From Lachnospiraceae bacterium (GTDB lineage: Bacteria; Bacillota; Clostridia; Lachnospirales; Lachnospiraceae), in contig JAFVBE010000037.1 of the NCBI GenBank assembly GCA_017480195.1, forward strand, positions 1 through 64,000: a stretch of DNA of 64,000 nucleotides. Reading direction: 5' to 3'. Positions 1,938 through 42,980 of the stretch are shown here, one piece after another; position 1 is the stretch's first letter, and each line of letters starts with the position of its first letter. Position numbers and translations under genes: made by a program. The notes beneath the pieces are model-generated. The model searched no databases, was not told the origin of the DNA, and saw only the letters and a list, made by a program, of their open reading frames with translations.

Positions 1938-1957
1938 ATAACCTCCCTATTAATAAT

Positions 1958-1982
1958 TATGGGGTGAAAAACTCACCCCATA
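1958..1982 (-). terminator. hairpin between khpA and rimM
   Basis: A 10-base inverted repeat, TATGGGGTGA / TCACCCCATA, with a 5-base loop. On the transcribed (minus) strand it is followed by AATTATTAA rather than a U-run. It is therefore more likely a partial terminator, RNase processing site or transcript stabiliser that sets the ratio of rpsP-khpA to rimM-trmD than a full stop. Confidence 0.6.
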
Positions 1983-1998
1983 AAACCTATTGTTAGAA

Positions 1999-2226
1999 TT
2001 ATTTAATATCTACAATTACCTTTTTGTCGCTCTTAGAAGCGGCAGCCTTTACAACAGTTCTGATTGATTTTGCTATTCTTCCCTGTTTACCAATGACCTT
2101 GCCCATATCATCTGCGGCAACCTTAAGTTCGATTGTAACAGTATCGCCATCAACTGTTTCGCTGACAACAACTTCATCAGGATTATCGACAAGAGATTTT
2201 GCGATAATTTCTACTAACTCCTTCAT
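1999..2226 (-). CDS. khpA: KH-domain RNA-binding protein KhpA (YlqC)
   Basis: A 75-residue single KH domain with the RNA-binding loop GKVIGKQGRIAKSIR (GxxG = GKQG). KhpA proteins bind RNA, usually as a heterodimer with KhpB/Jag, and affect cell division and elongation in Firmicutes. I start at the ATG at 2226, because AAGGAGG lies 8 bases before it. An upstream in-frame GTG at 2235 overlaps that ribosome site and is unlikely. It lies between rpsP and rimM, its standard place. Confidence 0.93.
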   Translation of the reverse strand: MKELVEIIAKSLVDNPDEVVVSETVDGDTVTIELKVAADDMGKVIGKQGRIAKSIRTVVKAAASKSDKKVIVDIK

Positions 2227-2244
2227 TACCGGCACCTCCTTGTA

Positions 2245-2490
2245 CTACTTTTCGATACCTGCCTGCTTAAACAACTTAGCTACTGTGTCTGTCGGCTGTG
2301 CGCCGTTATTGAGCCACTTCTTAGCTGCATCAGCATCAATCTTAACGATACTTGGCTCCTGATTCGGATCATAAGTGCCAATCTCCTCAATAAATCTTCC
2401 ATCTCTTGGAGATCTTGAGTCTGCTACGATTACTCTATAAAAAGGATGCTTCTTATATCCCATTCTTCTTAATCTGATCTTTACTGCCAT
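2245..2490 (-). CDS. rpsP: 30S ribosomal protein S16
   Basis: An 81-residue S16 with the characteristic N-terminus [19 protein letters not shown] and the segment [22 protein letters not shown]. It is a component of the 30S body needed for assembly. The ATG at 2490 gives the expected MAVKIRL start, with GGGAGG about 11 bases before it; an in-frame GTG four codons upstream falls on the ribosome site itself. It is followed after 18 bases by khpA. Confidence 0.98.
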
Positions 2491-2573
2491 TTTAATTTTC
2501 ACCTCCCTTTATTCTCATGAAGCTTATCATGAATTAATCCTTTGAATAATCTATAATAAGTTGTCACCTATTA

Positions 2574-26876: not shown

Positions 26877-28330
<1,454 letters not shown>

Positions 28331-28336
28331 AGATGA

Positions 28337-28365
28337 ATATTATCACACTTATTCTTATATGTCAA
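28337..28365 (-). promoter_or_regulatory. eno: eno promoter
   Basis: On the minus strand: perfect TTGACA (28360-28365), 17-base spacer, TAATAT (28337-28342). A strong sigmaA promoter, as expected for enolase. Confidence 0.8.
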
Positions 28366-28415
28366 CAGATTAAAAAATATTCCTGATTTTATAAATTTAT
28401 ATTTAACTCATTATG

Positions 28416-28658
28416 GGTGTAGTGGATATGGTTGTTGACTTCGTAGACATATGGGACACCGAAAACCCGTTCTCACTCGATAAAAAACGCAGGGGATACT
28501 ATTAATCCGTTCAAATAGAATATTGGCATTTTTACTTAAAAGTATGACTTAAGCAAAAATGCCAATCTCCTATTCTCACGTCTTAAAGTACCCGCGTTTT
28601 TTAACGGTTTTCTTGTGCCCCATATATCTCCTCGTCAATCAGCCATATCCACCACACC
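28416..28658. repeat. 243 bp imperfect palindrome (element C)
   Basis: The ends GGTGTAGTGGATATGG (28416) and CCATATCCACCACACC (28643-28658) are inverted copies. Complementarity continues inward with gaps, through ATATGGGACAC/GTGCCCCATAT-like, GAAAACC/GGTTTTC and AAAAAACGC/GCGTTTTTT blocks, to a central GGCATTTTTaCTTAA / TTAAGcAAAAATGCC stem at about 28524-28562. It lies between the eno promoter and the promoter of the lipoprotein gene and has no ORF. It could be a non-autonomous mobile element or a large folded RNA or terminator. Its sequence is unrelated to the four repeat copies further right. Confidence 0.7.
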
Positions 28659-28693
28659 AGCTCAAATATCGCGATAAATCGCGATATTGAGCT
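28659..28693. repeat. hairpin abutting element C
   Basis: An inverted repeat of about 16 bases, AGCTCAAATATCGCGAT / ATCGCGATATTGAGCT, with one bulged A and a 2-base loop, starts at the base after element C ends. It may be a separate palindrome into which, or beside which, element C inserted, or a terminator for leftward read-through. Confidence 0.6.
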
Positions 28694-28747
28694 ATATATT
28701 AGTTTCAGTTATAATTTATATAATATGTATATTATGATTTAATGAAT

Positions 28748-28776
28748 TTGACAATCTATAAGGTTATATGTAATAT
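28748..28776 (+). promoter_or_regulatory. promoter of the 28806 lipoprotein gene
   Basis: TTGACA (28748-28753), 17-base spacer, TAATAT (28771-28776). Transcription would start about 23 bases before the ATG at 28806, which supports that start over an upstream in-frame one at 28776 that overlaps the -10 box. Confidence 0.8.
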
Positions 28777-28805
28777 TGAAATATATGAATTGGAAGGCAG
28801 AAAGT

Positions 28806-29258
28806 ATGAGATTGACTCACAAAAAAATTATTTTATCAATATTAATAGCTTGTTTTTTGATTTCCATATATGGTTGTAGCAAAAGTTCTGAAGCAGAAAG
28901 GCTTTCTAAAAATCTTTCGGATTATAAGCTTGTTGCAGAATATGCTTTAAATAACTGTAAAAATGATAAATACAAGGTCATTGATGACAAAGCAGAACGA
29001 TATGTCGTGGACTTATCTGATATTGAAGATATTGCTGAAATAAAGTCCAGTGTTGCAATTGCACAACAAGATTTTTCGTATATATGGATTGAAGATTCCT
29101 ATGTAATATTTTGGAACGATGAAACAAAAACAATGGGATTATTGTATTCTGAAAAACCAAAGAAAGCAATTAAATCTATAAAGACATGGTATACAACTAT
29201 GGAAAGTGAAAAGATTGATACAAAATTCTACATAATAGGTACTTGGAAAAGTAAATAA
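28806..29258 (+). CDS. small lipoprotein of unknown function
   Basis: A 150-residue protein. The basic N-terminus MRLTHKK is followed by a hydrophobic stretch and a lipobox-like IYGC, then a charged extracellular domain (ISDYKL.. pattern, VVDLSDIEDIAEIKSSVA, SYVIFWNDETKTMGLLYS). It should be a lipid-anchored surface protein. No family recognised. It is a single gene with its own strong promoter, convergent with htpG across palindromic repeat copy 1, and it sits between two large palindromes, so it may be recently acquired. Confidence 0.75.
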   Translation: MRLTHKKIILSILIACFLISIYGCSKSSEAERLSKNLSDYKLVAEYALNNCKNDKYKVIDDKAERYVVDLSDIEDIAEIKSSVAIAQQDFSYIWIEDSYVIFWNDETKTMGLLYSEKPKKAIKSIKTWYTTMESEKIDTKFYIIGTWKSK

Positions 29259-29278
29259 AAATTTTTTACGCGCAGCGT

Positions 29279-29572
29279 GTCGGTTAGACGGGTATGCCTT
29301 GATATGATCTGTGTTAATTCCGACAAGATAAAAAGCAGGCAGTTTGCCAACGATTCGCACAATTTGTTTAAAATCAGAAACGAATGGTTTGAGTAAATTC
29401 ACTCAGAAATCGAGCTGTTTGAGCGAAAGCGAGTTCTCGATTTCGTGTGAATTTAGAAAACCTGAGTGCTCTGATTTAACAAATTGATTGCGTGTTGGTA
29501 AACTGCCTGCTTTTTATATTGTCGGTCTTAATTCCAATTACCTATCAGGGCATACCATACAGTCTAACCGAC
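29279..29572. repeat. palindromic repeat copy 1 (A-B nested form)
   Basis: The outer palindrome (type A) begins GTCGGTTAGACGGGTATG at 29279 and ends with its inverted copy CATACC..GTCTAACCGAC at 29572. Nested inside is the type B palindrome at 29322-29523. Its 30-base arms (29322-29351 and 29494-29523) match each other at about 28 positions. The B core includes CACAATTTG..AAATCAG / CTGATTT..CAAATTG, and a central hairpin with stem AAATCGAG / CTCGATTT around TGTTTGAGCGAAAGCGAG. It fills the gap between convergent genes (lipoprotein and htpG). Confidence 0.85.
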
Positions 29573-29597
29573 CTTGTTACACATATATCGGACAGTT

Positions 29598-31613
29598 CTA
29601 CTCTCCTATGAGGATATTAAGCACCTCATTACTTCTTGCTACAAATGCGGTCATCGCCTCCGGTGCAAGCGGCTTATTGGCAAGCACTGCAAGGTCGTAT
29701 AATTGACAGCATACTGTATTCGTATGCTCGCCCTCCGGATTGTCAAGCACATACTTTACAAGCTTATTATTAGCATTAAGCACGAGAGTTTCTCCCTCAT
29801 CACCGAACATATTCGGATCCATGCCCGGCATACTGTATGCCTTCATCATCTCAGCCATACGGCGTGATTCCTCTGATAAGGTAATCATAGATGATACATT
29901 CTCATTCTTAAGACTCTCAACCTTGACAGTAAGCTTATCCTTGCCTGTAGCCTTCTTGAAGGTTTCAGAAAGCTTATCCGTATATTCCTTAGTCTGTTCC
30001 TCGGTAAGCGCCTCGCCTACGAAATTATCCGCAAGGTCTGCATCTATACGAAGGAATTTGACATTTTCATTCTTGCTCTCGAGGTGAGTGATGTACGGAT
30101 TATCAATATTGTGGGTAAGATAAACCGCATCTATGCCCTCTTCCTTGAACATATTGATATACTGTGACTGTGCAATCTCGTCACTCACATAGAATACCTT
30201 ATTCTCATATTTTTCTTTACCTGCCTCAAGATAATCGGGAAGTGTGATATACTTTCCCTCAAGGTTCTTGAACAGCATATAATCAGTCATCTTCTCACAG
30301 AACTTATCGTCTCTTAAGCAGCCGAATTTTATGAATGGACTGATGTCATCCCAGTATTTCTCATATTCTTCTCTATCAGTCTTGCACATACCTGACAGCT
30401 TATCGGCAACCTTCTTCGTGATATAGTCGGAAATCTTCTTAACCGAGCCATCATTCTGAAGTGCGCTTCTTGATACATTAAGCGGTATGTCAGGACAGTC
30501 GATAACACCCTTAAGCAGCATAAGGAATTCCGGTATAACCTCCTTGATATTATCAGCTACGAATACCTGATTGTTATATAATTTAATCGTTCCCTCAAGC
30601 TGGTCGTACTGCGGATTAATCTTAGGAAAATATAATATGCCCTTTAAATTAAACGGATAATCCATATTAAGATGTATCCAGAACAAAGGCTTCTTAAAGT
30701 CTAAGAACACATGCTGATAGAAATCAACATACTCCTCATCAGTACAATCCTTAGGATTCTTGAGCCAAAGTGGATTGGTGTTATTAAGCGGAGTTTCCTT
30801 CTTCTCGTCTTCTTCATCTGATGAATCTTCTCCATCCTCTGCATCAGTATCAGCCTTATCCTCTGCATCCTGCTTATCAGCAGTATCACCTACAAGGTCA
30901 TCCTCTTCTGTGGTGTCAACCTCGATAACCTTATCCTTCTTCTTGTCCTCCTCAGCCTTCTTCTTAGCCTCTTCCTCGGCTTTATCCTCGTCGGTAAAGT
31001 AGATATTGTAAGGCATAAATGCACAATACTTCTGGATAACCTCTCTTACACGATATTCATTGGCAAACTCATAGCTATCCTCATTAAGATAAAGCGTAAT
31101 CGCTGTACCTCTGGTATCATCATCGCTCTCGGTCATGCTAAATTCCGTACCGCCGTCACACTCCCAGAATACAGGCGTTGCGTCCTTCTTATATGAGCAG
31201 GTCTCGATAGTAACCTTGTCAGCCACCATAAATGCCGAATAAAATCCAAGTCCGAAATGACCGATTATCTGGTCGTCATTTGACTTATCCTTATATTTAT
31301 TTATGAAGTCTGTTGCACCTGAAAATGCAATCTGATTTATATACTGCTCTACCTCCTCAGCAGTCATACCGAGTCCGTTATCGACAAAGGTTATGGTTTT
31401 GTCCTTAGGAGATGCGTATACATCTATTCTGTATTCCTCTCCTTCGACCTCCTCGAACTCTCCCATCATAGCAAGCTTCTTTAATTTCGTTATTGCATCA
31501 CAGCCATTTGAAATAAGCTCTCTTATGAAAATGTCGTGGTCTGAATAAAGCCATTTCTTGATAATCGGGAATATATTCTCGCTGTTAATTGATAAGCTTC
31601 CCTGTTTTTCCAT
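29598..31613 (-). CDS. htpG: chaperone HtpG (Hsp90) with acidic linker
   Basis: A 671-residue Hsp90-family ATPase. The N-terminal GHKL domain has RELISNGCDA, FVDNGLGM, and GHFGLGFYSAFMV. The middle domain has NPLWLKNP...YVDFYQHVF, FKKPLFWIHLNMDYPFNLKG and PLNVSRSALQND. The C-terminal dimer domain ends the protein. Between the first two domains lies a Lys/Glu/Asp-rich segment (about residues 208-275), some 50 residues longer than the E. coli linker. AGGAGG precedes the ATG. Expression is probably under HrcA through a CIRCE site upstream. Confidence 0.97.
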   Translation of the reverse strand: MEKQGSLSINSENIFPIIKKWLYSDHDIFIRELISNGCDAITKLKKLAMMGEFEEVEGEEYRIDVYASPKDKTITFVDNGLGMTAEEVEQYINQIAFSGATDFINKYKDKSNDDQIIGHFGLGFYSAFMVADKVTIETCSYKKDATPVFWECDGGTEFSMTESDDDTRGTAITLYLNEDSYEFANEYRVREVIQKYCAFMPYNIYFTDEDKAEEEAKKKAEEDKKKDKVIEVDTTEEDDLVGDTADKQDAEDKADTDAEDGEDSSDEEDEKKETPLNNTNPLWLKNPKDCTDEEYVDFYQHVFLDFKKPLFWIHLNMDYPFNLKGILYFPKINPQYDQLEGTIKLYNNQVFVADNIKEVIPEFLMLLKGVIDCPDIPLNVSRSALQNDGSVKKISDYITKKVADKLSGMCKTDREEYEKYWDDISPFIKFGCLRDDKFCEKMTDYMLFKNLEGKYITLPDYLEAGKEKYENKVFYVSDEIAQSQYINMFKEEGIDAVYLTHNIDNPYITHLESKNENVKFLRIDADLADNFVGEALTEEQTKEYTDKLSETFKKATGKDKLTVKVESLKNENVSSMITLSEESRRMAEMMKAYSMPGMDPNMFGDEGETLVLNANNKLVKYVLDNPEGEHTNTVCCQLYDLAVLANKPLAPEAMTAFVARSNEVLNILIGE

Positions 31614-31618
31614 TTTAA

Positions 31619-31752
31619 CATTCCTCCTAAAATTTGTTACGCCCCCTCACATTCGTTCGGCGGCAAGTCGTCAGAACGCATTTTAAGTATGCCGCTTTGC
31701 GGCATAGGCGTTCCTCCTATTATTGTTATGCCCCCTCACATTCGTTCGGCGG
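31619..31752. repeat. duplicated segment in the htpG leader
   Basis: A 44-base segment that includes an AGGAGGAA ribosome site and the GCCGCCGAACGAATGTGAGG-like string (minus strand) is present twice, at about 31619-31663 and 31709-31752, a 90-base offset. Copy-to-copy differences are few. Between them is TATGCCGCTTTGCGGCATA, a small palindrome at about 31689-31706. The result is two potential ribosome sites in the leader. Confidence 0.8.
31637..31705 (-). CDS. possible 22-codon leader ORF before htpG
   Basis: In the htpG leader, AGGAGG is followed after 7 bases by ATG and an open frame MPQSGILKMRSDDLPPNECEG-A that stops 23 bases before the htpG start, just upstream of the htpG ribosome site. 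It arises from the leader duplication. It may be a regulatory upstream ORF that couples translation, or a chance by-product; nothing shows that it is translated. Confidence 0.35.
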   Translation of the reverse strand: MPQSGILKMRSDDLPPNECEGA

Positions 31753-31771
31753 TTCTTAATTTCTATAACTT

Positions 31772-31800
31772 AATATAATACTGTTAAAATAGAATGTCAA
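31772..31800 (-). promoter_or_regulatory. htpG: htpG promoter
   Basis: On the minus strand: perfect TTGACA (31795-31800), 17-base spacer, TATATT (31772-31777). This predicts a leader of about 150 bases before the htpG ATG at 31613. The CIRCE operator ends 7 bases upstream of the -35. Confidence 0.75.
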
Positions 31801-31807
31801 GAAAAAA

Positions 31808-31834
31808 TTAGCACTCGTTTTAAACGAGTGCTAA
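31808..31834. promoter_or_regulatory. perfect CIRCE operator (HrcA site)
   Basis: TTAGCACTC-N9-GAGTGCTAA matches the CIRCE consensus at all 18 arm positions with the correct 9-base spacer (31817-31825). HrcA binds CIRCE to repress class I heat-shock genes, so htpG is very likely in the HrcA regulon here. The spacer GTTTTAAAC extends the dyad to 13 bases per arm, and on the minus strand six T follow. The same DNA therefore also looks like an intrinsic terminator for the anti-sigma-type gene ending at 31898. Confidence 0.93.
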
Positions 31835-31897
31835 TACAATGATTTATAATAATCTTTTTACCTGTCGGGCATAATTATTTATAACCATCAAAATAAT

Positions 31898-33373
31898 TTA
31901 TTCTACAATCTCTATCTTATTCCTAAGGTCAAACCATGCATTATTACCATTTATATTATAACCATAATCAGTATCATTTACAACCATTACAACATAAGGT
32001 AGTACATCTTCATTTAACAGATATGCCACATTAACGGTTACAGTTTCGCCTGCTTTAATCTCAGGTATATAGTTCTTGAAATACTCATTATGCACATCCC
32101 AATAAAGCATGCTGCTATCGTCTCTTGCCGCATACTCATACAATGCATAAGCAAAATCATCAAGTCCTTCAAATCTGAATTGTTCAAACCCCCTGCTTAA
32201 GTTATAGCTATCTTTATTTTCTCTTAAGAATTCTATTTCTGCCGTAAACCACACATCATACAGTGTCTCATCAGAAGTATTGGTAAATTCCAAGGTTGCA
32301 TACACAAGCTTTTCATCCACCTTTACCTCGTCTATTACCTCATCAAGTTCATTTATTCCGTCTCCGGCTTTATAGGCATATATTGTATTCTGCTTAAGCT
32401 TACCGTCTTCATCAAGTGATTTTAACCATTGCGGCTGGTAGCCTAACATTTCCTTATCTTCCAATACAGAAAAATCATCATATGCTTTTACATCTGTCAC
32501 TTTTACGCTCAAGCTTCCCGCTCCTAATTCCTTTCCGTCTTCCGTTACAGCCGAATTGCTGATATCAGCACTTTCATTCAGATTCTTAAGATTAGATAAA
32601 TCTGCAATCGGATACGAAGGAATATCTACATCACCATAATCATAGCCTATATTATATTCGCTTTCGGCTTCTACATAATCGGACCATTTGAATGCTTCTT
32701 CTGCGGTTAATACCTCATCGGTCACCTCTATCTCAAAGCCTGACATTATAATTTCAAAATCCTCATCTGATAAAGCACTTCCGGTCATCGCAACAAGCAC
32801 AGCATTTTTATCCTCATAAAGCATATAATACCATACTCGTCCGTCGCTGAATTCTACTCTTGTGCCGGGTATTCCCGCTACTACAACATCCCTGTTATCC
32901 ACTACATGCCCAAGTCTTAGCTCGTCAAAATCCACAGACTTATCTATATGTACAAGCATAGGACTAAAATATCTATCAGGGTCAGTATTGTCATTAAGTT
33001 TACCCCCTGCATTCAAATATTCATCCATTCCATCAGGCTTAGCACCGAAATTATAATCAAATGCTTTATATTCACTTTGAGCTTTCATATCAGACAGATT
33101 TTCTGTTGTGCCCTCAGTTACAATGTCTACATTGATACCATAATTTCCTTCCTTTTCCGTCTTAAGCTTTATCGCATAATTTGCCGCATATACTGTTGAG
33201 CCTGCCACAAGAACTGCCGCCAAAGCAGCCGCTACCCTAAGTATTTTACTATTGTTCTTTGTCTTATGAATCCCAGCTTTATTCGCTATACAATCCTCTA
33301 TATCATTTCTCATTCTGTCCGATATCTCATCCGGTATATCCGGAAGCATATATTTTAAATCTTCACTACGCAT
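31898..33373 (-). CDS. membrane protein co-encoded with an ECF sigma factor (putative anti-sigma)
   Basis: A 491-residue protein with a short cytoplasmic N-terminus of about 45 residues, one transmembrane helix (ILRVAAALAAVLVAGSTVYAA, about 46-67) and an extracytoplasmic domain of about 420 residues. That topology and the 8-base overlap with the sigma gene suggest an anti-sigma or sensing partner. The outer domain has no motif I recognise. The ATG at 33373 has AAAGGAGG 9 bases upstream; the ATG at 33382 abuts the ribosome site. Confidence 0.8.
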   Translation of the reverse strand: MRSEDLKYMLPDIPDEISDRMRNDIEDCIANKAGIHKTKNNSKILRVAAALAAVLVAGSTVYAANYAIKLKTEKEGNYGINVDIVTEGTTENLSDMKAQSEYKAFDYNFGAKPDGMDEYLNAGGKLNDNTDPDRYFSPMLVHIDKSVDFDELRLGHVVDNRDVVVAGIPGTRVEFSDGRVWYYMLYEDKNAVLVAMTGSALSDEDFEIIMSGFEIEVTDEVLTAEEAFKWSDYVEAESEYNIGYDYGDVDIPSYPIADLSNLKNLNESADISNSAVTEDGKELGAGSLSVKVTDVKAYDDFSVLEDKEMLGYQPQWLKSLDEDGKLKQNTIYAYKAGDGINELDEVIDEVKVDEKLVYATLEFTNTSDETLYDVWFTAEIEFLRENKDSYNLSRGFEQFRFEGLDDFAYALYEYAARDDSSMLYWDVHNEYFKNYIPEIKAGETVTVNVAYLLNEDVLPYVVMVVNDTDYGYNINGNNAWFDLRNKIEIVE

Positions 33374-33842
33374 ATTTCTCATCCTCCTTTAATTTTTCCT
33401 TCATCAGCTTTCTTGCACGAAGCAGCCTGTTCTTCACCGCTGACTGTGTACATGAAAGCATAACCGCAATCTCACTTATCTGATAGCCCTCCATATAATA
33501 AAGAACCATAGCAGTCCTTAGTTTATCAGGCAGCTCGTAGAGTGCCGCATACAGATATCCATATTCTTCCTTTTGCTCACTGTATAAATTCTCAGGTATA
33601 TCAGTAGTCTGTGGCAGCCTTAATATATTGTAACATTCATTTATCAGAATTCTTACCAGCCATGCTTTCACTGACGACTTATCCTTCAGCTTATCAAGCT
33701 TATCATAGCCTTTTACTATCATCTCGGATATAGCATCAGAGCAGTCGCTGTCATTTGGCAATATTGACTTCGCAACATGATAAAACATATTTTTATTATC
33801 CATAATGATGCTTCCTAATTCTTCCTTAGTAAGCTTCGCCAT
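33366..33842 (-). CDS. ECF-type RNA polymerase sigma factor
   Basis: A 158-residue sigma-70 family factor with only regions 2 and 4. Region 2 carries AYHVAKSI-like and VRILINECYNILR segments; region 4 is LRTAMVLYYMEGYQISEIAVMLSCTQSAVKNRLLRARKLMKEKL, with a clear helix-turn-helix. It probably directs a small stress regulon, held by the membrane protein encoded next. AAGGAG precedes the ATG. Repeat copy 2 lies 120 bases upstream. Confidence 0.93.
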   Translation of the reverse strand: MAKLTKEELGSIIMDNKNMFYHVAKSILPNDSDCSDAISEMIVKGYDKLDKLKDKSSVKAWLVRILINECYNILRLPQTTDIPENLYSEQKEEYGYLYAALYELPDKLRTAMVLYYMEGYQISEIAVMLSCTQSAVKNRLLRARKLMKEKLKEDEKYA

Positions 33843-33962
33843 ATCATACGCTCCTTTCAGCTTATTTAGATTTCAATATCATATGATAAATTCGTCTGAC
33901 ATAAATAAGACGGAAAAACAGATAAAAAGGTCTCATAATTTTTTATTTTGTTTCGTACATAC

Positions 33963-34169
33963 GGTATATAAATTAAACAGACAGCCACGACAACTTGCAA
34001 TCGATTTGTTAAATCAGTCAACTCGGATTCTATTGCCTTTGCACGAAATCGAGAACTCGCTAACGCTCAAACAGCTCGATTTCTGAGCAAGCCAATACGA
34101 ACCACTCGTTGCTGATTTGACACAAATCGTGCAAATTGTTGTCGTGGCTGCCTGTTTTATTTATATACC
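33963..34169. repeat. palindromic repeat copy 2 (type B, inverted orientation)
   Basis: A 207 bp palindrome whose 32-base arms (33963-33994 and 34138-34169) pair at all but about two positions, although the arm sequence differs from the other copies. Read on the minus strand it has the same core as copy 1, including the central stem AAATCGAG / CTCGATTT and the GCTCAGAAA and TTTGAGCG strings. It has no outer type A palindrome. It lies between the ECF sigma gene and the end of the gene at 34193. Confidence 0.85.
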
Positions 34170-34192
34170 TTATTATAGTGAACACATAAAGT

Positions 34193-34678
34193 TTAAATAT
34201 AATACTTCTCCACCGTCTTATCCCATAGTTCTTCAAGGCTTTTATCCAGTGTAAATACATTTAAGGATGTTCCGGTTGTTACGGACAGCTTATCATCAAA
34301 ATAATTTACATTCAGGAATAATGCCCTCACATTATCCGGATGTATAGGCAGATTATTCATTTCAATTAATCTTTGTATGTTCTCATTATTAAACATAAGT
34401 ATGAGCTTAAGCTTTATCGGAAGTCTGTCTGAGCGTATGTATTCAAGCACACTTTCTTTTATGTCATGCCAGCTTATGTATTCTTTATCGGAAAGTGCCT
34501 CATATTCCTCACCGTCATAAAAATCCTTATTGATTTTACCATTTATATAATAGGAAACCGACACATCTGCCTTCGCTTCAAAAAGATAAAAGCTGTCATA
34601 CTTTTCATTTGTGAATAACTCATTTAGAAAGGATTTTACCTCATCCCCTGTATATTCAAAATTCTTCACCTTATACAC
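34193..34678 (-). CDS. DUF5721-like protein
   Basis: A 161-residue soluble protein. The layout (N-terminal EVKSFLNELFTNEKYDSFYLFEA, then WHDIKESVLEYIRSDRLPIKLKLILMF, then YFDDKLSVTTGTSLNVFTLDKSLEELWD) resembles DUF5721, a Firmicutes family of unknown role. It appears to start at a GTG (34678) directly after the stop of the transglutaminase-like gene, so translation is probably coupled. Weak ribosome site (AAGAG). Confidence 0.7.
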   Translation of the reverse strand: MYKVKNFEYTGDEVKSFLNELFTNEKYDSFYLFEAKADVSVSYYINGKINKDFYDGEEYEALSDKEYISWHDIKESVLEYIRSDRLPIKLKLILMFNNENIQRLIEMNNLPIHPDNVRALFLNVNYFDDKLSVTTGTSLNVFTLDKSLEELWDKTVEKYYI

Positions 34679-35761
34679 CTATCTCTTATTCAAATTAATA
34701 GTCATTACACTATATGGACCATAACTCTCTGGTATATATGTAAATCCATATACACCATCGACATTCGCTATCTGCGACATATCATAGGTATTCGCATTAT
34801 AGTCTGTAAGCACATATTCTATAATCGCATTGCGGTCACGCATCGCCATGAATTCAACCTTATTTTTAAAGGCATCATAATTACCAATCATATCATTAAG
34901 CTTGAAATAATTGTAATCCATACTGTCACAAGGCTCATAGCCATCCTTATTCCATTCATGTAAATCATCCATTATGTCATCCGTTACATTCATATAAATA
35001 TGTCCTGCATATCCATGTCTGTCCGGTATCGGATCATCCCAAGTCGCATCAACCTGATACCACTTACCATCAAGCTTAACTCTATTCCAGGCATGAAGCT
35101 CACCGTCAGCATAACCGGTCATTATTTCATTTTCGACATCAACACAATTTAGAAGAAGTGTCATCGCCTCTGCATAACCATTGCAGACAGCTTTTCCATG
35201 TACCAGTACGCCATAAGCCCTGAAAGCATACTCATTAGCACCATCAGTATATCCATACTCACAGTTTTTTACAATATAATCGTGTATTGCGAGTTCTTTC
35301 TCATAATCTGACATCCCCGGTTTAATAACCTGATTAACAACATACAGCATCTGCTCATACAGTTTCTGTGCCGCAGGTCTATCAACAGGAATATCCATAT
35401 TATTCTTATACTTCTGATAAGCATAGTAGTTATCAGATATTTCATATTTGAACTGAATCTTAAGCTTATTATTTCTTTTATAAAGAACTATGTACTGATC
35501 TACACTTCCATTCAAGCTTATTATATAATCATTGATATTCTTGATTTCCTCAATACTTATATCAGACAGGTAGAACACTCCTCCGGTTTCTCCATCATCA
35601 ATTTGAACCGAAATCATCTTAGAAAGCTCTGCCATATCAGATGTAGTTTGTTCCGGATGGATTCTTGCACCTATCTCCCAATTTAAAAAATATGCGCCAA
35701 GAATAACCACTACCACCAGTATCGGAACAATCCAATAAACCTTAGCCTTATCTTCATTCAT
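34679..35761 (-). CDS. membrane-anchored transglutaminase-like protein
   Basis: A 360-residue protein with an N-terminal membrane helix (VYWIVPILVVVVILGAYFL) and an extracytoplasmic transglutaminase-like core. The catalytic Cys is in GKAVCNGYAEAMTLLL, the His in GELHAWNRVKLDGKWYQVDATWDDP and the Asp in DATWDDP. Bacterial members act as cysteine proteases or crosslinkers at the cell surface. It follows a 51-residue membrane ORF by 9 bases. Confidence 0.88.
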   Translation of the reverse strand: MNEDKAKVYWIVPILVVVVILGAYFLNWEIGARIHPEQTTSDMAELSKMISVQIDDGETGGVFYLSDISIEEIKNINDYIISLNGSVDQYIVLYKRNNKLKIQFKYEISDNYYAYQKYKNNMDIPVDRPAAQKLYEQMLYVVNQVIKPGMSDYEKELAIHDYIVKNCEYGYTDGANEYAFRAYGVLVHGKAVCNGYAEAMTLLLNCVDVENEIMTGYADGELHAWNRVKLDGKWYQVDATWDDPIPDRHGYAGHIYMNVTDDIMDDLHEWNKDGYEPCDSMDYNYFKLNDMIGNYDAFKNKVEFMAMRDRNAIIEYVLTDYNANTYDMSQIANVDGVYGFTYIPESYGPYSVMTINLNKR

Positions 35762-35770
35762 AAATACATA

Positions 35771-35926
35771 TTACTCCTCATCATCATCATCATTATTATT
35801 AAATTTCTTACCTGTGACTATTAATACAACGGTTAGTATAATTGAAACGATAAGACACACAGCTATAAGAAATGGTTTGCTGTTGTCACCCGTAGCTGCC
35901 ATTAAAAGCAATAAATCATTAAACAT
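35771..35926 (-). CDS. 51-residue membrane protein resembling a wall-anchor tail
   Basis: An open frame of 51 codons with GGGAGG 7 bases before its ATG. The sequence reads MFNDLLLLMAATGDNSKPF, a 20-residue hydrophobic helix, then TGKKF and an Asn/Asp/Glu-rich end. The TGDNSKPF-helix-KK order resembles the C-terminal sorting region of LPXTG proteins without the rest of the protein. It heads the transglutaminase-like/DUF5721 operon; it may be a small partner or a vestigial anchor. Confidence 0.65.
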   Translation of the reverse strand: MFNDLLLLMAATGDNSKPFLIAVCLIVSIILTVVLIVTGKKFNNNDDDDEE

Positions 35927-36036
35927 AATAAGCCTCCCATAATTATATGTCCCATACTTTTACTAAAAGCATTAAAACCAAAACAATCTATACACCATTT
36001 TAATAGATTAAGTTGAAACTATCAACTGTTTTTTAC

Positions 36037-36065
36037 TTGATACATTTAAGTCCTTGATGTAAAAT
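36037..36065 (+). promoter_or_regulatory. argH: argH promoter
   Basis: TTGATA (36037-36042), 17-base spacer, TAAAAT (36060-36065), about 50 bases before the argH ATG. A short AGTTGA/TCAACT hairpin followed by TTTTTT lies just upstream at 36011-36034. Confidence 0.65.
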
Positions 36066-36116
36066 GTTATATAAGTTTTAATTTAAGCGAAAACATACGA
36101 TAGTGAGGTAAATAAT

Positions 36117-37499
36117 ATGGCTCAGCTCTGGGGTGGTCGTTTCACAAAGGAGACAGACCAATTGGTTTATAATTTTAATGCGTCAATTTCATTTGATAAG
36201 AAATTCTACAGACAGGATATACGCGGAAGCATTGCACATGTTACCATGCTCGCAGCATCAGGAATACTTACGGACGAAGAAAAAAATCAGATTATAGCCG
36301 GTCTTAACGGCATTCTTGATGATGTGGAAGAAGGAAAGCTTGAAATCACCGACAAATACGAGGATATACACAGCTTCGTCGAGGCTAATCTGATAGACAG
36401 AATCGGTGATGTCGGCAAGAAGCTTCACACCGGGCGTTCAAGGAACGACCAGGTTGCCCTTGATATGAAGCTTTACACGCGCGATGAGCTTAGCTTTATA
36501 AAAGTTCTTGTTATAGATTTAATAAAGAACCTTCATAAGCTTATGAAGGAGAATACCGATACATATATGCCGGGCTTTACACATCTGCAGAAAGCACAGC
36601 CAATTACATTTGCACATCATATCGGAGCATATATGGAGATGTTCAAGCGAGATCTGTCAAGGATAGATGACATCTATGATAGAATGAACTACTGCCCGCT
36701 CGGTGCAGGTGCTTTAGCAGGCACCACATATCCTCTTGACAGAGAGCTTACTGCAAAGCTCCTTGATTTTAAAGGACCTACACTTAATAGTATTGATTCT
36801 GTATCCGACAGAGATTATGTGATAGAGATGCTTTCTGCATTCTCTACCATTATGATGCACCTGTCAAGATTTTCAGAGGAAATTATTATCTGGAACTCAA
36901 ATGAGTACCAGTTCGTAGAGCTTGACGATGCCTACAGCACCGGAAGCTCCATTATGCCGCAGAAGAAAAATCCTGATATAGCCGAGCTTGTAAGAGGTAA
37001 AACAGGACGTGTATATGGTGCTCTTTCTTCAATACTTACTACCATGAAAGGCTTACCACTTGCATATAATAAGGATATGCAGGAAGATAAGGAGCTTACC
37101 TTTGATGCAATAGATACCGTAAAAGGTTGTCTGGCATTATTTAACGGTATGTTATCAACTATGAAGCTTAATAAGGATATAATGGAGAAAAGTGCAATGA
37201 ACGGCTTCACCAACGCAACCGATGCCGCTGATTATCTTGTAAATCACGGCGTACCATTTAGAGACGCTCATGGAATAGTCGGTCAGCTTGTGCTCTACTG
37301 TATAGAAAAAAATATATCACTTCTTGATATGAGCTTGGACGAATATAAAAAGATAAGTCCTGTGTTCGAGGAGGATATATATGATGCGATAAGCCTTAAG
37401 ACCTGTGTTGAGAAAAGGAATACCATAGGTGCACCCGGACCTGAGGCTATAAATAGAGTTATTGAAATAAATGAGAAATATATTCAGAGTCTTAATTAA
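36117..37499 (+). CDS. argH: argininosuccinate lyase
   Basis: A 460-residue enzyme of the fumarase/aspartase superfamily, last step of arginine synthesis (argininosuccinate to arginine and fumarate). It begins [14 protein letters not shown]; the signature [23 protein letters not shown] holds the catalytic loop Ser, and [13 protein letters not shown] and [16 protein letters not shown] are conserved. GAGG precedes the ATG. No argG is next to it; two small genes follow in the same direction. Confidence 0.97.
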
Positions 37500-37547
37500 C
37501 ATATGCCTGATATTATATGATTAGCGAATTTAAGGAGAATTGTAATT

Positions 37548-37817
37548 ATGAATAATACCGATAAAGCAAAGCTTGATGTTGCAAGAAGAATGTTAAAGGG
37601 AAAAATCGAGGTTGATGAGGTTGTCCTTATGACCGGACTTGATAAAGCAACCATAAAAAAGCTTGACGAGGAGATAAATCCTAAGAACTCGGATGCAGCA
37701 ATACTTCAAAATCTCGATAATGTCGATCTTGATATAGGTCAGCTCTTATTTGATGACCTGCCTGCCGAAGATGAGGAACTTGAGGGTTTTCATGAAGTAA
37801 CTGAAAATGAAGAATAA
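37548..37817 (+). CDS. small helical protein of unknown function
   Basis: An 89-residue protein with an N-terminal helix-turn-helix-like stretch (VARRMLKGKIEVDEVVLMTGLDKATIKKLDEEI) of the kind seen in Rpn-type nuclease tails and small regulators, then an acidic C-terminus. AAGGAG lies 9 bases before the ATG. It is 48 bases after argH and 35 bases before the pilin-like gene. Function unknown. Confidence 0.7.
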   Translation: MNNTDKAKLDVARRMLKGKIEVDEVVLMTGLDKATIKKLDEEINPKNSDAAILQNLDNVDLDIGQLLFDDLPAEDEELEGFHEVTENEE

Positions 37818-37852
37818 TTAATTACTTTTTTGTAAATTAGGGAGGGGTTTAT

Positions 37853-38491
37853 ATGAAAGTAAAAGATAATAAAGGATATTCACTTGTTGAACTAATAATT
37901 GTTATAGCGATTATGGCAATATTAGCCGGAATAATATCATTAGGTGTAATAAGATATATAAATAAAGCTCGCAAGGCTCATGATATAGAAACTGCTGAAG
38001 CTATCGGAAAATCTCTACAGGCTGCAATAGCCGGTGATGAACAACTATATGATTTTGTTATGTATGCTACGAGCACATATGGCAATAATATGGAAGCTAA
38101 TCCAAGTGATAACAAATATTATCGTGTATTAGGATTTGCAAATGTTCCTACCGGTTCACATGCACAATACGCTATGGACTTCCATGTTATTAATACCGCT
38201 CTTCCTGATGAACTCAAAAATATAGACTTAGCATCACTTATAAAAGAATATATCGAAGCAGACTTGGTTCCACTTAAATTCGAAAAAGACAATGCTATTG
38301 ATGAATGGATTATCTGTGCTGACAAAAGTCAGAATATTTATATTTTTGTCGGTGCAGGTATGAATGACAATCGTTACTTTATTTCAAAAAACGGTGTAAA
38401 TAATATGGGCAACGGAAGACAATGCTATATGATATGGCCTGAGGTTGACCCTGCATACGAAAGACTTGGTACTCCGAACGATGCACCATAA
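37853..38491 (+). CDS. orphan type IV pilin-like protein
   Basis: A 212-residue protein with a type III (prepilin) signal: short basic leader MKVKDNKG, then YSLVELIIVIAIMAILAGIISLG, with Glu at mature position 5. A prepilin peptidase (PilD/ComC) should cut after the Gly and the helix would mediate assembly in a pilus or competence-like fibre. The globular domain is unlike named pilins and ends MIWPEVDPAYERLGTPND. No assembly ATPase, PilC or peptidase gene is nearby. A strong GGAGGGG site precedes it. Confidence 0.88.
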   Translation: MKVKDNKGYSLVELIIVIAIMAILAGIISLGVIRYINKARKAHDIETAEAIGKSLQAAIAGDEQLYDFVMYATSTYGNNMEANPSDNKYYRVLGFANVPTGSHAQYAMDFHVINTALPDELKNIDLASLIKEYIEADLVPLKFEKDNAIDEWIICADKSQNIYIFVGAGMNDNRYFISKNGVNNMGNGRQCYMIWPEVDPAYERLGTPNDAP

Positions 38492-38615
38492 ATCAATATA
38501 TTCCTTCTCAAAATGATTTTATTATACTAACTTTTACAACTTAATTTGTAAAATTTGTGTCATGAATATTTAATCATTAAACATAAAAATGAGCTTATCA
38601 TTATACGCGTAGCGT

Positions 38616-38906
38616 GTCGGTTAGAGGGGTATGCTTTAATGGGATATCATACTAAGGCGGGCAGATAAGAAACAGGCAGATACGGCAACAATTTGCACAA
38701 TTTGCGTAAAATCAGAAACGAGAATTCGAATAGGCTCGCTCAGAAACAGACTGTTTGAGCGAAGCGAGTTGTCTGTTTCGTGCAGAGCATAGAGAATTTG
38801 AGTTTACTGATTTAGCAAATTGATTGCATGTTGCGTAGCTGCCTGTTTCTTGGCTGTCAGTATTAGTATGATTTACCATTAAAGTATACCATACCCTCTA
38901 ACCGAC
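38616..38906. repeat. palindromic repeat copy 3 (A-B nested form)
   Basis: The outer type A palindrome begins GTCGGTTAGAGGGGTATG at 38616 and ends with its inverted copy ..CCCTCTAACCGAC at 38906. The inner type B element (about 38667-38851) has arms AAGAAACAGGCAG.. / ..CTGCCTGTTTCTT and the conserved core. Its central stem is AAACAGAC / GTCTGTTT in place of the AAATCGAG / CTCGATTT of copies 1 and 2, a compensated change. It lies between convergent genes (pilin-like and typA). Confidence 0.85.
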
Positions 38907-38918
38907 CATATACATATA

Positions 38919-40757
38919 TTAATTATTCTGCATCGCACGCTTTGCACGCATACGCTGTGTTGGGTCAAGTATTTTCTTTCTGATACGGATATGTTCGGGC
39001 GTAATCTCAAGGAGCTCATCAGTATCAATAAAGTCAAGTGCCTGCTCAAGACTAAGAATCTTAGGAGGTGTAAGCTTAAGCGCTTCATCAGAGCCTGAGG
39101 CACGCGTATTAGTAAGCTGCTTCTTCTTACATACATTGACCTCAATATCCTCTGTCTTACCACACTGTCCGACTACCATACCGCCGTAAACCTGCTCGCC
39201 GGGACCGATAAATAAGGTACCTCTCTCCTGCGCATTGAAAAGTCCATAGGTAATTGCTTCTCCTGCTTCAAATGCTATAAGAGAACCCTGACTTCTGTAT
39301 GACATATCCCCCTTGTAAGGCTCATATCCTTCAAATAATGTATTAATAATTCCGTTACCCTTAGTAGCCGTTAAGAAATCTCCCCTAAAGCCTATAAGTC
39401 CACGGGACGGAATTAAAAACTCAAGCCTTGTGGTACCATTTCCGGTAGGCGCCATCCCCTGCAATTCACCCTTACGATTATTAAGCATATTAATAACGGT
39501 ACCTGAGAATTCGTCAGGTACATCTATGACCGCAAGCTCGAAAGGCTCTAACTTCTTCCCCTTCTCGTCCTCCTTATAGATAACCTCTGCCTTACTTACG
39601 GCAAACTCATATCCCTCTCTTCTCATATTCTCAATAAGAACCGAAAGGTGAAGCTCACCACGACCTGATACCTTGAAGCACTCTGTCGTATCAGTCTCCT
39701 CAACTCGAAGTGAGACATCAGTATTAAGCTCTCTGAAAAGTCTGTCTCGCAGATGTCTTGAAGTTACATACTTTCCTTCTTTACCCGAAAGCGGCGAATC
39801 ATTGACCATAAAATCCATTGAAATAGTCGGCTCGGAAATCTTCTGAAAAGGAATCGGCTCAGGATTTTCAGGCGAACAGATTGTATCACCTATATGAATG
39901 TCCGATATACCTGATATGGCAACTATAGCACCGATATTTGCCTCATTAACTTCTATCTTATTAAGTCCATCAAATTCATACAGCTTTCCTATCTTAACCT
40001 TTACTTTCTTATCAAGCTCGTGTGCATTGACTATTACGCACTCCTGATTAAGCTTAAGAGAACCGTTATCGACTTTTCCTACACCTATTCTTCCTACATA
40101 CTCGTTATAATCAATCGTACTTATAAGTACCTGAGTGCCTGCATCAGGGTCACCTGTCGGGGCAGGGATAGACTTAATTATTGTCTCAAATATAGGCTTC
40201 ATATCAGTACCAGGTTCATCTGCACTGTAAGATGCTACACCATCCCTTGCAGATGCATAGACAAATGGACAGTCAAGCTGCTTCTCATTTGCATCAAGTT
40301 CAAGCAAAAGCTCAAGCACCTCTTCCTCTACCTCTGCCGGTCTTGCCTCCGGTCTGTCTATCTTATTTATACATACGATAACATTCAAATCAAGCTCTAA
40401 GGCTTTCTTAAGAACGAACTTAGTCTGTGGCATAGCTCCCTCAAAGGCATCAACCACAAGTATAACTCCATCAACCATCTTAAGAACACGCTCAACCTCT
40501 CCACCAAAGTCAGCATGCCCCGGAGTATCAATTATATTAATTTTTGTATTTCCATAGGTAACGGCTGTATTCTTAGAAAGAATTGTTATTCCTCTCTCCC
40601 TCTCAATATCATTGGAATCCATTACTCTCTCGGCAACTTCCTGATTCTCACGAAATACACCGCTCTGCTTCAAAAGCTCATCCACTAATGTTGTTTTACC
40701 ATGGTCAACATGTGCTATAATCGCTACGTTTCTAACATCTTCTCTAGTTATCTTCAT
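38919..40757 (-). CDS. typA: ribosome-binding GTPase TypA/BipA
   Basis: A 612-residue translational GTPase needed for 50S assembly and growth under cold or stress. G1 AHVDHGKTTLVDELLKQSG, G3 IDTPGHADFGGEVERVL, G4 NKIDRPEARP; the EF-G-like domains and the TypA-specific C-terminus (TRASGSDEALKLTPPKILSLEQALDFI) follow. Length normal. Own promoter upstream; repeat copy 3 lies just after the gene and copy 4 lies beyond its promoter. Confidence 0.97.
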   Translation of the reverse strand: MKITREDVRNVAIIAHVDHGKTTLVDELLKQSGVFRENQEVAERVMDSNDIERERGITILSKNTAVTYGNTKINIIDTPGHADFGGEVERVLKMVDGVILVVDAFEGAMPQTKFVLKKALELDLNVIVCINKIDRPEARPAEVEEEVLELLLELDANEKQLDCPFVYASARDGVASYSADEPGTDMKPIFETIIKSIPAPTGDPDAGTQVLISTIDYNEYVGRIGVGKVDNGSLKLNQECVIVNAHELDKKVKVKIGKLYEFDGLNKIEVNEANIGAIVAISGISDIHIGDTICSPENPEPIPFQKISEPTISMDFMVNDSPLSGKEGKYVTSRHLRDRLFRELNTDVSLRVEETDTTECFKVSGRGELHLSVLIENMRREGYEFAVSKAEVIYKEDEKGKKLEPFELAVIDVPDEFSGTVINMLNNRKGELQGMAPTGNGTTRLEFLIPSRGLIGFRGDFLTATKGNGIINTLFEGYEPYKGDMSYRSQGSLIAFEAGEAITYGLFNAQERGTLFIGPGEQVYGGMVVGQCGKTEDIEVNVCKKKQLTNTRASGSDEALKLTPPKILSLEQALDFIDTDELLEITPEHIRIRKKILDPTQRMRAKRAMQNN

Positions 40758-40807
40758 ACTTACATCCTCTTATATCTAATTCTCATATATACTTTTCAAA
40801 CTTAGCT

Positions 40808-40836
40808 ATTGTACCACAGCAAATTAACTTTTGCAA
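40808..40836 (-). promoter_or_regulatory. typA: typA promoter
   Basis: On the minus strand: TTGCAA (40831-40836), 17-base spacer, TACAAT (40808-40813), about 50 bases before the typA start. Confidence 0.6.
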
Positions 40837-40908
40837 CCACATATAAACTATGATATATCTTCTCAAATTTATATTGTTTGACTTATTACAAATTCATCAT
40901 ATTATGGC

Positions 40909-41108
40909 GGATAAATAAAATTAGGTGATTACAGCAACGATTCACACAATTTTCGTGAAATCAGAAACGAGAATTCGAATAGGTCTGCTCAGAAACAGAC
41001 TGTTTGAGCAAAGCGAGTTGTCTGTTTCGTGCAAGACGTAGAGAATTCGAGTTTACTGATTTAGAAAATTGATTGTGTGTTGCAGTAGTCACCTAATTTT
41101 ATTTATCC
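40909..41108. repeat. palindromic repeat copy 4 (type B)
   Basis: A 200 bp palindrome with 30-base arms (40909-40938 and 41079-41108) that pair at about 28 positions. The arm sequence (..AAATTAGGTGA.. / ..TCACCTAATTT..) differs from all other copies. The core matches copy 3, with central stem AAACAGAC / GTCTGTTT. It has no outer type A palindrome. It lies between the typA promoter and the end of the chemoreceptor gene. Confidence 0.85.
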
Positions 41109-41124
41109 AGCACACTACTGATAT

Positions 41125-42846
41125 TTATAATTTAAAGAATGCAATCTCTTTTCTAAGCTGCTCTCCAATCGTCTGAAGCTTAACTGCATTATCAGTTATA
41201 GTACGGAAGGTCGAATCAAGCTCCTGCATAGAAGCACTTGTCTGTTCCGTAGCTGCTGCGTTCTCCTCTGATATGGCAGAAAGCTCAACCATAATACTAA
41301 CAAGCTCATCCTTCCTGTCATTCATATTATTAGTCTTTTCTTCTGTATCCTCTACAGAATCCTGAACTGTCCTTGCGTCCTCAGATAACACATCCATATC
41401 ATCCTTTGCAAGCATAATCTGATCTGACTGTGCCTGGAACTGGTCTATAAGTGCATCAACTATCTGAACTGAGCTTATGGAATCATCAACCAACTGCTGT
41501 GTTACTTCTTCAATCTTAACAACCGCTTCCTGAGATTGTATTGCAAGATTAGAAATCTCAGAAGCAACCACTGCGAAGCCTCGACCTGACTCTCCTGCTC
41601 TTGCTGCCTCAATTGTTGCATTAAGTGACAGAAGGTTTGTCTGGTCAGCTATATCGGAAATCATCTGTGTCATATGTGATATCTGCTGAACTGAATTAGC
41701 TGTATTTTCAATAGTTGCACGTATAGAATCTACAGCAGATGTAACTTCCTTGTTCTGTGCAAGCAAATCATCCATTGCTTTAGTAGTTCTGTCGCTTGCT
41801 TCATGCATGCTGTCAACCATAGAATTAAGAGCATCTATATTATTAGCAATTCCTTCTATATCATGTCCAATATTGTTTGCATTGTCAGAAGATGTCTGTA
41901 CACTCTCTGCCTGTGTCATAGAGCCCTGTGATATATCCTCAACTGCAGATGTAACCTGTCTGGATGCCTCTGCTGCATTTGTCGCTGAAGCGGACAAATC
42001 ATATCCTGCTGTCTTAATATTATCGGAAAGCTGCTTGACATTACCTATTACATCACTTAGCTTATCTTTCATTTCATCTATAGCCTTGGCTATTGTACCT
42101 ATCTCATCATGTCTTTTAATGAGTACATGGTCAATATCCTCATGCAGATTACCATGTGCAATCTCATTAACCTCACCTGCCAGCATATGTAACTTCTTAG
42201 ATACAAGATTAGCAAGAGAAAATCCTATAGCACAGCTTATTCCTGCAAATATAACAATTGCAATTATAACCTTCTTTATAATTCCATTAATCTCATCCTT
42301 GATATCAGCTTTGTTACGTCCGGTAAATACCATACCTACTATGGTTCCGTCATCATTTTTCAAAGGGGTGTAATAACCACTGTAATCTTTTTTATCTATC
42401 TCAATATCGTTTGTACTGAAATCTTTGCCTGTACTGAGAACATCAAGCGGACCTTTGGAGGTTATCTTGGTACCAACCATCCTGTTCCCCTTAGAATCCT
42501 TAAGGGTAGTTAATGCTCTTTCATCCCACATAAATACTGTATATTCAATGCTGGTGTCTGCTGATATTGAATCTAACTGCTCCTCAAGTTCAGCACCAAC
42601 TTCAACTCCACCTTTATATATTATTCCGTCTTCATATGCCCAATCACCATCATATTCATTGGATACCTCATCCACCATCTGATAAGCCCCAACCTTAAGC
42701 TCCTCAAGATTTAATTTCTGTATAATCCTCTTTGCATTACTGATAGCTATTACACCAACCAAAACTGCAGTCAGAACTAAAAATACTGCTGACAGTGTTA
42801 TCATCTTGATTAATAAATTTTCATTAAGCTTTTTAAAAATTTTCAT
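41125..42846 (-). CDS. methyl-accepting chemotaxis protein
   Basis: A 573-residue chemoreceptor. It has TM1 at about 13-35, a single-Cache-like sensor domain (about 40-185, including [20 protein letters not shown] and [23 protein letters not shown]), TM2 at about 190-212, HAMP, and a long helical signalling hairpin with the conserved tip [39 protein letters not shown]. The ATG at 42846 has AAGGAAA upstream. It signals to CheA/CheW, which are not encoded here. The ligand is unknown. Confidence 0.95.
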
Positions 42847-42980
42847 GGCAATATTTCCTTTCAAAAATGATTATATTTTAACGAAATAATATTTGATTTA
42901 ACAGTAATTTGATTTAATAAATTACTATACAAGTAAGTATACCATTTTTGTATGATTTTGTCATCAAAAAAATCAAAAAA

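Follow-up and report, generated by a model that had tools for sequence, protein, structure and literature searches.

The first 64,000 nucleotides of contig JAFVBE010000037.1 from a Lachnospiraceae bacterium (assembly GCA_017480195.1; this whole stretch is referred to as the window) contain four related palindromes of about 200 bp, and the question they raise is what kind of element they are. A preliminary description, made from the sequence of the window, had offered either a non-autonomous palindromic transposable element or an undescribed structured RNA, an interpretation that is partly supported here. We consider it probable that the four palindromes belong to a family of mobile repeats that are hairpin-shaped, non-autonomous and conserved at the tip. 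The hairpin family is real, large and mobile-looking, and its surprising part is the tip, which is conserved across phyla; the recurrence of this tip on otherwise different hairpins in distant phyla points to an undescribed kind of mobile hairpin. The unit is a core of 143 bp, which on one strand forms a long, interrupted hairpin with TGTYTGAGCGNAGCGAGTT at its end (a four-base loop occurs in some copies) and lies inside palindromic, mostly site-specific arms.

All four palindromes were located at the positions first given for them, copy 2 being inverted, and the arms of each copy (36-57 nt) are 82-92% complementary to each other (Table 1). The extents needed enlargement in two cases, as copies 1 and 3 lie within a longer outer inverted repeat, designated B. 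As had been noticed, the inner stem is changed on both sides, reading AAATCGAG/CTCGATTT in copies 1 and 2 and AAACAGAC/GTCTGTTT in copies 3 and 4. Further compensated states (AAACCGAA/TTCGGTTT, AAACCAAT/ATTGGTTT, AAATTGAT/ATCAATTT, AAATCGTG/CACGATTT and others) were observed among 67 cores of the source genome (G000; 2.4 Mb, 85% complete) and its relatives. When a covariance model trained on 65 cores, including the four window copies, was applied to the window at E-values up to 1, only these four places were matched, with 166-174 bits (E-value of 6e-38 or better) on the strand carrying the tip and a weak 16-33 bits (E-value 1e-5 to 0.12) on the other strand.

The alignment of these 65 cores comprised 34 of the 40 from G000 and 31 from relatives (the G000 copies L023, L024, L028, L031, L035 and L036 were left out, as was L045). 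Its consensus has 37 pairs, 97.9% of the cells are paired, and double-sided changes are found at 26 of the 37 pairs. The covariation score was 0.397, compared with 0.170 for shuffled alignments (0 of 500 shuffles reached the observed value) and 0.029-0.094 when the alignment was slid. Covariation over the 65 homologs, the check that the preliminary description had proposed for its fold, is strong. On the strand reading TGTYTGAGCGNAGCGAGTT, G.T occurs in 84 cells and A.C in 18, with 11 of the 18 A.C cells in a single pair; the split is 40:13 in the G000 copies and 44:5 in the relatives. Counts made independently of any structure are safer than this consensus-based one. Isolated arm mismatches, with each context counted once, gave a G.T:A.C ratio of 12:1 in the B group and 20:9 outside it (p = 0.06). 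Hairpins elsewhere that share the tip gave 57:29 in other organisms (92 distinct hairpins from 122 hits), 31:3 in other genera (25 from 40 hits) and 7:0 in viral contigs (21 from 88 hits), where repeats were collapsed, low-scoring hits were dropped and the three sets may overlap. When arms and core were taken together, the ratio was 21:4 for elements agreeing in orientation with the neighbouring genes and 49:12 for those between convergent genes. In addition, RNA folding was more stable on the tip strand in 67 of 67 cores, partly owing to the tip itself.

The excess of G.T over A.C on one strand indicates that the fold of that strand is selected, as RNA or as single-stranded DNA (ssDNA); the fold is genuine and a property of one strand. 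This observation bears on an explanation at the level of DNA alone, in which quasi-palindromes are kept perfect by template switching between their arms and the fold is not under selection. Arm homogenisation and spacer inversion through template switching are documented (PMC8604942), and at site C26a the element of the relative G013 is, by eye, flipped in place with its centre deleted. However, if pairing were kept merely by copying from arm to arm, G.T and A.C would be expected in equal numbers. They are not: every set counted shows more G.T than A.C on the tip strand, although some of the sets do not reach significance by themselves. The explanation, already weakened by this strand asymmetry, also leaves the same 19-base tip across phyla unaccounted for, and we consider it quite unlikely.

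The window alone shows about a tenth of the family. BLAST of the type core (window 29352-29494, 143 bp) returned 40 matches in G000, and matches were present in 11 of the 61 genomes searched. Ten of these are among the 37 genomes of the genus; the eleventh has a 28-base match only (E-value 8.5e-4). Eight genus genomes (G000, G007, G013, G015, G019, G022, G023 and G024; the high-copy genomes below) have at least 14 or 15 core matches each, while G011 has 8 and G032 has 3. Core relatives were also found at two loci of Lachnospiraceae metagenome-assembled genomes (MAGs; L155 with 148 bits and L173 with 64 bits). Repeat B encloses 16 of the G000 copies (by eye), and was also seen bare (L281), minus its core (L274) or enclosing a different palindrome (L279 and L284). 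The nested palindromes within B at L279 and L284 are quite different from the core and look identical on two contigs, possibly an assembly duplicate. Two G000 copies (L023 and L024) contain about 80 bp of extra hairpin sequence within the left strand of the core.

When core and arms were compared among 34 G000 copies (background outer-arm identity about 0.38), the two were largely inherited separately, with arms that are mostly site-specific rather than drifted. Eleven copy pairs have cores at least 93% alike and at most one partner in repeat B; their outer-arm identity was 0.30-0.68, being 0.43 or lower in nine pairs and 0.59 and 0.68 in the remaining two. The cores of L029 and L032 differ by about 1% and their outer arms are at 0.34 identity, both being palindromic. 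Pairing was observed at 72% of the aligned arm positions within a copy versus 31% between copies (37 G000 copies; L023, L024 and L036 were left out of the arm counts). At the site of copy 1, G013 combines a core of the other subfamily with arms and flanks that are nearly unchanged (by eye). Some of the "compensatory" change is thus replacement of the whole core as one block. The preliminary description had read the arm differences as drift with pairing kept. This reading needs amendment for arms that are largely specific to their site around a core that is partly exchanged whole. At site C26b, the outermost stem is common to G000 and G013 and the inner arms and core differ; at site C23b, one copy is common to G000 and G019 and G013 holds another in the opposite orientation (both by eye). 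These comparisons of sites across genomes fit a replacement of cores between copies and an inversion in place. An inverted duplication of the flank on insertion, considered from the G007/G024 pair described below and from the unlike arms around like cores, is not claimed, because core replacement and deletion account for both observations.

Gene placement was assessed from mechanically called open reading frames (ORFs), with the gaps of the same loci and of the window as control. At least one gene end precedes 39 of the 40 G000 copies, and these copies occupy 20 convergent gaps and 1 divergent gap, compared with 5 and 10 among the control gaps. Copy 4 lies directly behind a chemoreceptor-like ORF (41125-42864, minus strand). 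Empty sites, the comparison with sister strains that the preliminary description had called for, were assessed by eye and are present. At the site of copy 3, only a short B-type hairpin is found in G013. At the site of copy 4, six relatives (G013, G024, G007, G023, G019 and G015) have a short, bare or different terminator-like hairpin, four of them nearly identical. A bare hairpin stands at site C26a in G024, G022, G019 and G015 and at site C23a in G013, and the filled G007 stem at C26a resembles the bare G024 stem with the core in its loop. A block of about 2.4 kb around copy 2 is absent from G013. Judged from these sites, the elements appear to occupy terminator hairpins, often in the loop, with no clean fit at C26b and C23b.

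Two further hairpins were seen at these sites. At C23b, the palindrome of G007 and G024 (L323 and L324) is a different one, whose tip, GAGCGACAGCGAG, is of the same kind and has the tetraloop form. At the copy 4 site, G013 (C91 near 37791-38006, L288) has hairpins in tandem that bear GACGTGCTCAC(GTC) motifs, next to a CGCTTCGCTCG stretch.

The covariation and the placement at gene ends would also be explained by an immobile family of structured RNAs or terminators, inherited at each of its sites. We regard this alternative as distinctly improbable, given the patchy presence of the elements, the bare terminator-like hairpins at empty sites in relatives, the near-identical cores in unlike arms and a discrete duplicate in G304. 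In that genome, which is of another genus, two copies 1.1 kb apart (L377) differ by 2 bases over 183 bp including the arms, their flanks are unrelated, and no target-site duplication was evident in this one near-identical pair inspected. Together with the 40 genome matches, the patchy genomes and the empty sites, the G304 pair supports the dispersed palindromic element of the preliminary description. Its other option, read as a structured single strand, is supported by the strong covariation and by the excess of G.T over A.C on one strand.

The tip was then followed beyond the genus, where it recurs across phyla and sits mostly on hairpins. The pattern TGTYTGAGCGNAGCGAGTT was matched 123 times in 14 of 398 genomes sampled evenly from the phylum, or 91 times in 13 genomes when G000, the source of the pattern, was set aside, and the reversed pattern was matched 0 times in all 398 genomes. 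As the sample was drawn evenly, 14 of 398 is no prevalence for all bacteria; arms were checked for part of the 123 matches. A 19-base pattern, TGTYTGAGCRNAGCGAGTT, was found in at least 118 stretches of a one-genome-per-species collection, scanned without a control, and its carriers include Marinobacter, Variovorax, Stenotrophomonas, Haemophilus, Bacteroidetes, Nitrospira, Patescibacteria and Clostridia. Flanking complementarity exceeded the 99th percentile of control positions at 77 of 124 tip hits in the all-species collection, and 25 of 87 tip hits in viral contigs were above the arm-score control. A longer tip pattern gave 3 stretches on viral contigs and was not used. The core covariance model exceeded 30 bits on some loci of other organisms, a partly circular result since these loci were chosen by their tip. 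Divergent tip pairs, 181-255 bp apart, were present in 7 of the 12 two-match stretches listed, and G022, G007 and G023 (L366-L369) have composites in which a central dyad (AGCTTGAAACTGCGC... type) is flanked by two inverted tip hairpins. At least 7 of the 10 tip matches listed for G266 (C8, C12, C19, C23, C29, C42 and C46) are at most about 70 bases away from the end of a contig, where young, near-identical copies that break the assembly would be expected.

The tip has the form GAGC-GNA-GCGA, with GCGNAGC in 50 of the 65 cores and GCANAGC in 5. Its loop has three bases in 55 cores and four in 10 (GAAA in 4, GTAA in 3, GTTA in 2 and GATA in 1), and 3 of these 10 (GTTA and GATA) are not GNRA. 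Mini-hairpin loops of the d(GCGNAGC) type are unusually stable in DNA and form a biophysical motif rather than a repeat family; the matching form of the tip hints at DNA without deciding the matter. The exact tip strings had no match in the literature searched, and no such family appeared among the titles and abstract openings listed, a search whose coverage mostly excluded subscription papers. A tip that is near letter-perfect across phyla on stems that are free to vary implies that very distant bacteria have a single recognition event in common, whether an enzyme or a host factor performs it.

Compared with known systems, our best reading is that the family is REP/MITE-like in behaviour and stands outside the tagged REP families as tested. 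According to PMC3733652, REPs are palindromes scattered behind genes, with a patchy distribution across phyla, frequent opposite-orientation pairs and G.T pairs in their stems; the GTAG type is thought to be moved by RAYTs and the CGTC type is without a known transposase. The present hairpins resemble REPs and REPINs in all of these features of distribution and pairing. Movement of REP-type repeats by a RAYT or IS200-like Y1 transposase would explain the placement behind genes, the G.T pairs and the divergent tip pairs, which are found here too. Nevertheless, Y1_Tnp is found in only two of the eight high-copy genomes and does not track the hairpins, and neither a GTAG nor a CGTC column is conserved at either end of the 65 aligned cores. 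The tag of the hairpins is at the tip and that of REPs at the base, the REP stem of 5-13 bp contrasts with 37 consensus core pairs plus arms, and the outer arms vary by site. We thus consider this explanation very improbable.

RUP, ERIC, BOX and Correia elements are small mobile repeats of bacteria. The hairpins are like these and like miniature inverted-repeat transposable elements (MITEs) in being short, non-autonomous, intergenic, foldable and multi-copy, in forming composites and in having terminal inverted repeats. Unlike in MITEs, their conservation is centred on the tip and not on the ends. No parent insertion sequence was found in the searches made, and the one young pair inspected showed no target-site duplication. 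Group IIC introns associate with terminator-type hairpins; they insert beside the hairpins and carry a ribozyme, whereas the present elements are hairpins within hairpins.

Among the 564 ORFs within 2.5 kb of tips (loci L056-L173), no transposase was found in the 25 clusters listed. The largest cluster (11 loci) consists of ORFs overlapping the hairpins, and the next two (9 and 7 loci) of ABC ATPases and histidine kinases. The mobilising enzyme probably acts in trans, as none of the genes that repeatedly neighbour the hairpins is a candidate. PF05635 (23S rRNA intervening sequence/IVP protein) was matched in 0 of the 37 genus genomes, in a search whose control likewise gave no match.

A UG26-type reverse transcriptase (RT) is a lead only. 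Its gene is at C37:50680-51357 (L381) in G000 and was identified with PADLOC RT_UG26 (E-value 2.7e-154; the only member scanned). RVT_1 was found in 14 of the 37 genus genomes, i.e. in 7 of the 8 high-copy genomes and 7 of the 29 others (Fisher p = 0.002), and one RT lineage (46-86% identical) is present in G000, G013, G007, G024, G022, G023 and G015, the last with a partial gene. If the tip strand were transcribed, recognised by the UG26-type RT in trans and reinserted at terminators, the elements would be a bacterial counterpart of short interspersed elements (SINEs), and such a retroelement would agree with the RT of the high-copy genomes, the strand-specific fold and the position at gene ends. 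The eight high-copy genomes are, however, those nearest to G000 by typA, so the co-occurrence may reflect one shared ancestry. Moreover, G019 (88% complete) has many copies and no RT hit, G011 and G032 have no RT hit either, and G026 (100% complete) encodes an RT of 37% identity and lacks an exact match to the tip. The tip motif is absent from the nine RT loci examined (7-18 kb each), and PADLOC files UG26 under defence (DRT). A retroelement of this kind is therefore unlikely in our view. The broader proposal of a pan-bacterial superfamily of tip-tagged hairpins, which would copy themselves by way of a single strand in folded form, possibly with a UG26-type RT in trans, and settle in terminator hairpins as SINE-like retroelements with the 19-base tip as their only universal sequence, seems to us rather unlikely.

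Genes beside the UG26 RT had no Pfam match above the cut-off except one that is tRNA synthetase-like, and no described role for UG26 was found in the papers searched. Carriage of the UG26 RT by phages or plasmids was considered and rejected, as only distant RTs (<60% identity) were found, with 5 distant relatives (23-26%) in viral contigs. The RT near a tip in L143, a Desulfobacteraceae MAG, was rejected as mobiliser because it is of the group II intron type and not of the UG26 type. The gene (1580-2954, minus strand) and a hairpin with its tip near 3570 are about 0.6 kb apart, and the gene was perhaps inserted into an arm of this hairpin (compare L063).

For the mobile repeat family favoured here, spread would proceed by way of the tip strand, folded and single-stranded, as RNA or ssDNA. 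The element would be tolerated inside terminator hairpins because a hairpin placed in a hairpin loop may leave the terminator stem intact. Later reshuffling would include core replacement between copies, and copying between arms could bring about both homogenisation and in-place inversion. Several points weigh against this account. No transposition event was observed and no mobilising enzyme was found; IS200-like Y1_Tnp is present in 8 of the 37 genus genomes, among the high-copy ones only in G000 and G022. In other phyla the convergent bias is weak (19 convergent and 11 divergent gaps against 34 and 45 in the control, p = 0.085), and 47 of the 124 tip hits there are not above the arm-score control. 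Simple insertion into a loop is misfitted by C26b, which keeps a native terminator beside the element, and by C23b, which is without any hairpin in G023. In the best pair of empty and filled sites (G007 and G024 behind htpG), a deletion through a 5-base repeat accounts for the empty state no less well than insertion. Four like-core pairs with both partners in repeat B share like arms (0.90), and the common arms of the G304 pair imply that arms can travel with the core. Finally, G.T:A.C is 32:20 and not significant where the element opposes the neighbouring genes, and the consensus structure was picked with RNA energies, which favour G.U pairs.

If the recognition factor were named, a new mobility system would join RAYT/REP. 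Should the elements be safe passengers of terminators, they would also reshape the ends of host transcripts. The UG26 RTs become directly testable. The coordinates of the window copies are given in Table 1.

Table 1 Palindrome copies in the window, with their cores, arms and outer repeats
Feature	Position	Strand	Basis or remark
Copy 1 core (AAATCGAG/CTCGATTT subfamily; tetraloop tip GAGCGAAAGCGAG)	29352-29494	+	sequence, BLAST, covariance model
Copy 1 left arm	29314-29351	+	89% complementary to 29494-29531 (repeat search)
Copy 1 right arm	29494-29531	+	repeat search
Outer inverted repeat B around copy 1 (TCGGTTAGACGGGTATGCC ... GGCATACCATACAGTCTAACCGACC)	29280-29573	+	right end read off the sequence
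Copy 2 core (inverted; AAATCGAG subfamily; tip GAGCGTTAGCGAG)	33997-34136	-	sequence, BLAST, covariance model
Copy 2 including arms	33959-34173	-	arms 33959-33994/34138-34173, 92% complementary
Copy 3 core (AAACAGAC/GTCTGTTT subfamily)	38691-38830	+	sequence, BLAST, covariance model
Copy 3 including arms	38628-38890	+	arms 38628-38684/38834-38890, 82% complementary
Outer inverted repeat B around copy 3	38617-38907	+	right end read off; bare B-type hairpin here in G013
Copy 4 core (AAACAGAC subfamily)	40939-41079	+	sequence, BLAST, covariance model
Copy 4 including arms	40900-41117	+	arms 40900-40938/41079-41117, 85% complementary

Membership of a known Rfam family was also examined, as the preliminary description had suggested. 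With 4,227 Rfam models, no copy was matched at the gathering level, and at E-values up to 10 the 7 matches in window 28000-42000 included none over a copy. When 18 tip-bearing loci of other organisms were searched in the same way, one tRNA and one tmRNA were the only matches. A terminator scan of the window, with a maximum loop of 8, gave 12 sites versus 7.0 expected and none at the four copies. Another nested palindrome, unmatched by the core model, is located at 28416-28658 (arms 28416-28471/28603-28658, 71%; inner arms 28502-28539/28549-28586, 79%). The sole gathering-level Rfam match in the window is a GA-cis RNA (RF02987, 79.9 bits) at 31631-31721 on the minus strand, just upstream of an htpG-like ORF (29598-31613). 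The consensus of the GA-cis family contains a hairpin of the form GAgcGaAagcGAg, which resembles the tip of the element.

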